Assembly: GCA_026394715.1 (NCBI GenBank)
Contig: JAPKXR010000178.1
Location: 1 to 45,382, forward strand
Length of the DNA: 45,382 nucleotides
Direction: 5' to 3'
DNA from: Methanomicrobiales archaeon
GTDB taxonomy: Archaea; Halobacteriota; Methanomicrobia; Methanomicrobiales; Methanospirillaceae
The position numbers and the translations under genes were made by a program. The notes under the pieces were generated by a model that was not told the origin of the DNA, did not search any database, and saw only the letters and a list, made by a program, of their open reading frames with translations. This document shows positions 8,001-16,109 of the stretch, piece after piece (position 1 is the first letter of the stretch; every line of letters starts with the position of its first letter).

Positions 8001-8439
8001 TCACGTTTTCTCACATTTTTGACACTGATTACCCCAAAAACAGGGCAGAAAGGAGTTGTTGGGATCCATTTTTTTGTAAAAAAAAACATTGCAAACTACG
8101 CCCACCGGCAATAATATTTCACAAATCAGGTGGTATTTCATCCCCGACATTCACAAAAATGACGCTTCGAAAAGAGGCGAAGACAAAACGCCCCGCCCCC
8201 AGGTCCCACCCATAATTCAACGTTCTATGGGCAGGTTCCTTTCAGGTAGTTTTTGTCAACAGGCCCGGGAGTATTCCCGCCGGGCATCCATGCCAACCAG
8301 GGCCGACACAGCGGTTTTGTAAAAATCCACCAGGCAAAACCGATTGTTAAGAGAAAAAAAGAGAACCACAGTACCCCCGGGCTTCGGCTCTTTTTCAGTA
8401 TTCCAAATTCCCGCCCAACCAAAAAAACCAGCATCCCAT

Positions 8440-8900
8440 TTCAGACCTTCACGCATGTTTCGATCCCGGGTCTGCCTGGAGAAGAATCGGGGCATTTTCC
8501 GGCCTCTTTATCCCAAAAATAAGAGGGGTATTCGGTATTGGGCCGTCCACTGCTAACCTCCTTCCTGACCGTGCCCGTATTTTGAGTCCTAACAGGCGTG
8601 ATTATGGCCCGTTTATTAAAATACCTGCGCACCAGCCATATTTTAAAACAACCCCGTTATTTTGTTATTTTATCCGGATCCGGGACCGTAATGGGCCGGG
8701 ATTAGTTACATTCTACCGTTACCAGGCATGGGAATGACCGGAAACGAATTCGTTGGCGGAAGCGGGAAATTTTACCATTGCATCCCTTCTGTCAACGGTT
8801 ACAAATTTATCAGGGTCCTATTAACTACTGCATCAACAAAAAAGGATATTTCCGGGCACCGAACCGTGCCATACACTCCTTTTCAGGCAAGGGTGCAGAG
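8440..8900. repeat. Copy A of a long diverged intergenic repeat (non-coding)
   Basis: Collinear by-eye alignment with 15630-16090, e.g. ttccggcctctttatccc/ttccggcctcattatccg, accgtaatgggcc/cccgtaacgggcc, tttccgggcaccg/attccgggcaccg. Confidence 0.7.
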
Positions 8901-8936
8901 TCTTTGTCCTTTGGTAAAATTAGAGAAATGATTCCT

Positions 8937-15594: not shown

Positions 15595-15629
15595 ATGGAT
15601 GTACTTCCCCGTTCTGCCCTCTTAAAAAA

Positions 15630-16090
15630 TGGTCCTTCATGCCAGCCCTTGATACCGGTTCACTATCAGGTCTGCCGGGAAAAAATCCAACCTTGTTCCG
15701 GCCTCATTATCCGTAAAATAAGCAGGGTATTATCATTATGCCACTTCGTATTACCTCCCTTCCTGGCAGTACCCGGATTTTCGGTTTATACAGGCGATAT
15801 TCCTCTCCGTTTATGAAAATATTCAATTATCAGGCATATTTTTAAATAACCCCAATTTAACCGTGTTTTGCCTGGATTCGCGCCCGTAACGGGCCTTAAT
15901 TCACCGTACCCTGCCTCACCTGGCACGTAGTATAACGGGAAACGTGAGTAAGCCCGCCAGGAATGTCGACTCCACCCCATTCGATACATGAATGAAGAAT
16001 CAGGCTGCTATTCATTCAATGCAACCATCATCTTTTAGAGAATTCCGGGCACCGTATTGAAAATTATACCCCTACGTTGGAGTTTTTGGT
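15630..16090. repeat. Copy B of a long diverged intergenic repeat (non-coding)
   Basis: See copy A at 8440-8900; same orientation, no convincing conserved ORF. Confidence 0.7.
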
Positions 16091-16109
16091 GTGGAGTCAC
16101 CAGGGCAAT

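Follow-up and report, generated by a model that had tools for sequence, protein, structure and literature searches.

The repeat copies and their neighbors

The window, that is, the whole stretch of 45,382 nucleotides analyzed here, contains an intergenic gap of 936 bp (8001-8936) that is flanked by a metallophosphoesterase gene (plus strand) on one side and a ferredoxin gene (minus strand) on the other. The names given to these neighbors in the preliminary description, 2H-MPE and NIL-ferredoxin, hold in part: the Pfam Metallophos match of the former is only weak (E 2.6e-4), and the latter shows strong Fer4 matches, with the NIL match below threshold. The gap had also been described as collinear, over 8440-8900, with 15630-16090 of the same window. 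This similarity is far beyond chance: the best local (Smith-Waterman) alignment of the gap with the 15.6-16.1 kb region scores 97, whereas 300 dinucleotide shuffles average 22 (standard deviation 2.5) and never exceed 34. A search with the family profile (nhmmer) gives both copies slightly wider extents and detects no third copy in the window. The features placed in the two copies are as follows.

8419..8903, plus strand: copy A of the repeat (nhmmer family profile, columns 4-478 of 480, E 3.9e-99)
8493..8526, plus strand: best-conserved motif block of copy A (TTCCRGCCYCNTTATNNCAAAAATAAG region), with 6 columns invariant in 51/51 aligned copies and many more conserved in at least 90%
8636..8652, plus strand: AT-rich conserved block of copy A (consensus CCATATTTTTAAATAAC, consensus columns 217-228, mean retention 0.83)
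8774..8903, plus strand: right module of copy A, a decayed unit of ~130 bp bounded by an inverted repeat (consensus GACTCCGCACCCTT ... AAGGGTGCGGAGTC), with a lone homologue in the related genome G002
15618..16101, plus strand: copy B of the repeat (nhmmer, profile columns 2-480, E 2.1e-105)
15692..15725, plus strand: best-conserved motif block of copy B, the counterpart of 8493..8526
15968..16101, plus strand: right module of copy B (placed with the family profile)

Comparison of the flanks indicates that family similarity in copy A probably reaches ~25 bp further left of 8419. For the family as a whole, the best-conserved block can be written TTCCRGCC...CAAAAATAAG. The AT-rich block of copy A is TATA-like whichever strand is taken, which suggests a putative promoter. 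Elsewhere in the window, there is an 81-nt direct repeat (41995-42075 and 45014-45094) with 83% identity between the two units, ~3 kb apart.

Size, distribution and genomic setting of the family

The genome from which the window originates (G000; 3.25 Mb in 402 contigs) was compared with those of a sister species (G001) and of other relatives, all of which are fragmented metagenome bins (G003 is 65% complete). Searches for homologues of the repeat revealed dozens of further copies in G000, G001 and G002. In G000, copy A as the query matched 23 places, copy B 16 and the family consensus 39. With iterated profiles, the repeat grew to 480 columns; the E-values go down to 1e-119, and the copies, which are ~480-530 bp long, have common ends. 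A core model built from sequence only detects at least 29 places in G000, 23 in G001, 9 in G002 and a single one in a genome from another genus (G012); the same model has no hit in the remaining 104 genomes of the taxonomic family. The repeat is confined almost wholly to one genus.

Exact matches to the core motif are found elsewhere neither in the GTDB collection, which may omit the genome of the window itself, nor in IMG/VR, and the family consensus has no matches in plasmid and phage collections. An origin from a phage, plasmid or virus was dropped from consideration because phages, plasmids and IMG/VR contain no match. A search of the literature found no account of such repeats in the methanogen order Methanomicrobiales, and we regard this family, which is absent from Rfam and from the plasmid, phage and viral-contig collections, as newly described.

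The family consensus contains 5-12 stop codons in each frame and no period-3 signal, in agreement with the original statement that the similarity is not accompanied by a conserved reading frame. A decayed protein-coding gene is ruled out by the same observations. The copies in G000 are intergenic: none is spanned by a called gene, with the exception of pseudogene fragments on contig C204. For the 30 G000 copies with both neighbors called, the surrounding gene pair is convergent in 12 cases, divergent in 2 and co-directional in 16; among the 38 adjacent gene pairs of the window, the respective numbers are 5, 6 and 27. The copies are enriched between convergent genes. The genes next to the copies are unrelated to each other and often are housekeeping ones, such as those for fibrillarin, a RecQ-type helicase, thioredoxin and a methionine synthase-like protein.

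Filled and empty orthologous sites

At the locus of copy B, the element is present in both G000 and G001 (E 1e-39 for the G001 copy). In G002 and G003, the same locus contains no element, and the alignable flanks are separated by just ~13-20 bp. Because this locus is cleanly empty in two congeners, the copies are insertions. At the locus of copy A, the element is absent from the orthologous sites of G001, G002 and G003. A further locus (L061) carries the element in G000 and G001 and lacks it in G002, and eight more loci, besides these two, are occupied in both of the former genomes. For the full unit of ~500 bp, a target duplication is unreadable even where the sites are clearly empty, because the intergenic flanks are too diverged. 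A candidate on contig C204, an apparent insertion that had duplicated 52 bp, was rejected: its junctions better fit recombination among tandem PKD-gene paralogues, and it was therefore left out of the evidence.

Other repeats were also encountered. In G002, the gap that corresponds to the locus of copy A (L130) is filled by another, GC-rich repeat. This different dispersed repeat, with a hairpin-like GC-rich core of ~68 bp around CTCCCGGGGCTCCGCCCCGCCGCTTTGGCGGCCCCGGTT, is also located at L085 2477-2682 (G002 C108); it occupies more than 35 places in G002, with some further copies in G003, G001 and G000. In one G000 copy of the element (L021, contig C121), an insert of ~270 bp (1219-1488) splits the copy; its inverted ends are imperfect, it is flanked by TTAAT on each side, a second copy with 84% identity is present on C204 (L100 14473-14745), and the G001 orthologue is uninterrupted. 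This insert is a member of a second, younger MITE-like family.

Composite structure and the right module

The full repeat is a composite in which the right ~130 bp are a separate unit. The lone right-module unit in G002 is 86% identical to the family consensus and ends with TGGAGACTCCGCACCC and TGCTCACACCGCACCC, which are inverted with respect to each other and match at 12 of 16 positions. It is flanked on both sides by a 6-bp duplication, TATGGT, and the target is present as a single copy, with no insert, in G000 and G001. The right module is a MITE by its anatomy. In G000, the arms of its inverted repeat have decayed independently (153 paired cells versus 150 expected under independence). 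Comparison of the flanks of the full unit reveals no inverted repeat at the left end that would match the right end. A search of 8 fragmented genomes with the pattern GGAGACTCCGCACCC, at no more than one mismatch, yielded two copies of the repeat and one seemingly unrelated match, and no autonomous transposon with the same ends; the fragmentation restricts the reach of this search.

Origin, age and uneven decay

The mean identity among the copies within G000 is 60%; that between orthologous copies of G000 and G001 is 58% (0.52-0.61), and that between non-orthologous copies is 56%. Orthologues were also aligned pairwise with loose gap settings; since shuffled sequences could likewise attain 73% identity in this way, that alignment was not retained. 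At the four-fold degenerate sites of the flanking orthologous genes, which are an imperfect neutral yardstick, the identity is 0.55-0.61, about 0.57 (one non-homologous gene pair, with 22% protein identity, is left out of this figure). The match between 58% in orthologous copies and 57% at four-fold sites therefore places the burst near the species split and makes the mean decay neutral. The description of the repeat as an ancient element is supported, given the dozens of copies, the shared ends, the empty orthologous sites and the neutral-like mean divergence.

The repeat is probably a dispersed, non-coding, non-autonomous MITE-like insertion element of ~480-530 bp. Under this scenario, the element would have multiplied in an ancestor shared by two sister species, both from an uncultured genus of Methanomicrobiales, the whole unit being moved by a transposase that presumably acted in trans, and the copies would have survived mostly in the gaps between gene 3' ends because insertions there do the least harm. 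A longer ancestral repeat might have taken up the right module, which was then amplified along with it, and the conserved motifs could be sites bound by the mobilizing enzyme or by a DNA-binding protein of the host. Several observations speak against this scenario: the full unit has no matching inverted repeat at its left end and no readable target duplication, the 8 genomes searched yielded no autonomous transposon with these ends, and, in orthologous pairs, the motif columns are kept better than free decay of a dead element predicts.

The conservation of individual columns bears directly on a second, tentative reading, on the unlikely side in our judgment, under which the insertions would have been co-opted by the host, each copy keeping DNA motifs that purifying selection maintains in place, such as a promoter or the binding site of a regulatory or chromosome-organizing protein. 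As many as 18% of the columns are conserved in 90% or more of the G000 copies, compared with 1.6% expected from a star phylogeny with a uniform rate; the uneven retention is seen within every base class and is correlated between G000 and G001 (r 0.44-0.74). In orthologous pairs, the family-conserved columns are 77% identical, above the 57% of the four-fold sites, and the variable columns 41-43%. Because of this difference (77% versus 42% elsewhere), some motifs look constrained in place. Misalignment is not the cause of the unevenness, because invariant columns are interleaved with free ones in a block that contains almost no gaps; furthermore, the length of the 149-bp core is steady (148-150 bp in 45 of 51 copies). 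Such uneven decay is not expected of a dead repeat; selection in place could produce it, but so could gene conversion between copies or repeated independent insertion at the same site. Co-option is further opposed by the mean divergence, which equals the neutral one, by the lack of a common function among the neighbors, and by the absence of copy A from G001, because of which the copies are dispensable. The most far-reaching form of this reading, in which several dozen MITE-like insertions would have become a genome-wide set of host DNA elements, we hold to be unlikely. In this form, the copies of the two species, located chiefly in the gaps between the 3' ends of genes, would differ at most positions and yet retain, at constant spacing, a shared set of motifs for protein binding or promoter function. 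The MITE-like family is best described as largely decayed, although co-option may have affected part of it. The family is of interest because its burst can be dated, because sister species provide both filled and empty sites, and because approximately ten orthologous copies allow direct testing of in-place selection on intergenic repeats.

Short forms and the question of a structured RNA

A short form of the repeat (columns ~50-340) lacks the right module and the left end, and might be a recombination spacer that joins mobile gene cassettes of the toxin-antitoxin type, the dispersed copies being empty cassettes. Short forms in direct orientation surround MNT/HepT, PIN, RelE-like, ATPase_2/DUF234 and AAA_14/DUF4143 genes on contigs C38, C115 and C177 of G002 and C204 of G000, and a short form is present near toxin-antitoxin-type genes on C120 of G012. 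Nevertheless, this origin is improbable: most of the copies in G000 and G001 are solitary and, in G000, often adjoin housekeeping genes, no integrase is found among the cluster genes examined, and local duplication in gene-poor islands would look alike.

Several loci illustrate the arrangement of the short forms. Direct short forms are spaced 1.2-2.2 kb apart in L179, L096 and L097 of G002 and in L181 of G001 (1.4 kb in L181), and in the three G002 loci, MNT/HepT, PIN and AAA/DUF4143 genes are located between or beside them. In L100 (G000 C204:1-16000), tandem genes for PKD-type surface proteins and their pseudogenes are broken by short-form copies; this array is also interrupted by a duplication of 9.5 kb with an ATPase_2/DUF234 gene inside it.

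The initial suggestion that the repeat is a structured non-coding RNA family spread through the genome is very improbable, since it reveals no covarying helix, ordinary folding energy and no Rfam match. Among 55 diverged copies, the top column pair scores 27.3, roughly what independent column shuffles attain (maxima of 22.5-25.5), and no helix is supported; planted helices at 85% fidelity scored 44-85 in 11 of 12 cases, so that the test had power. Watson-Crick pairing is not enriched among the top-scoring column pairs, and the arms of the inverted repeat that bounds the right module, a feature that would suit an RNA, show no compensatory excess. The folding z-scores for both strands of both copies are 0.12, 1.47, -1.34 and -0.29, and Rfam yields no matches, either across the window at gathering thresholds or, with the cutoff relaxed to E 1, over the gap. 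RNAalifold assigns the alignment lower energies, for either strand, than its column-shuffled versions, but this gain is poor evidence because column shuffling destroys the dinucleotide content.

Comparison with known systems

The repeat resembles the structured RNA families of Rfam in being non-coding and in containing conserved sequence blocks, and differs from them in that it matches none and its helices are unsupported. With ERIC, QMITE2 and similar repeats (PMC10969869), it shares the presence of dozens of intergenic copies; QMITE2 is reported to be located mostly in 3' untranslated regions, and MITE transcripts have been described to form stable stem-loops (PMC10969869), whereas the repeat reported here folds no better than shuffled sequences and shows no covariation. 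The closest parallel is with the prokaryotic MITEs, which include archaeal ones in Sulfolobus, Halobacterium and Haloquadratum (reviewed in PMC10969869). The full unit differs from these in having neither a matching inverted repeat at the left end nor an identified partner, and its copies are unusually diverged, with invariant columns interspersed. Like the MITEs, however, the repeat is short, multicopy, non-coding and intergenic, and its right module possesses terminal inverted repeats and a target duplication.
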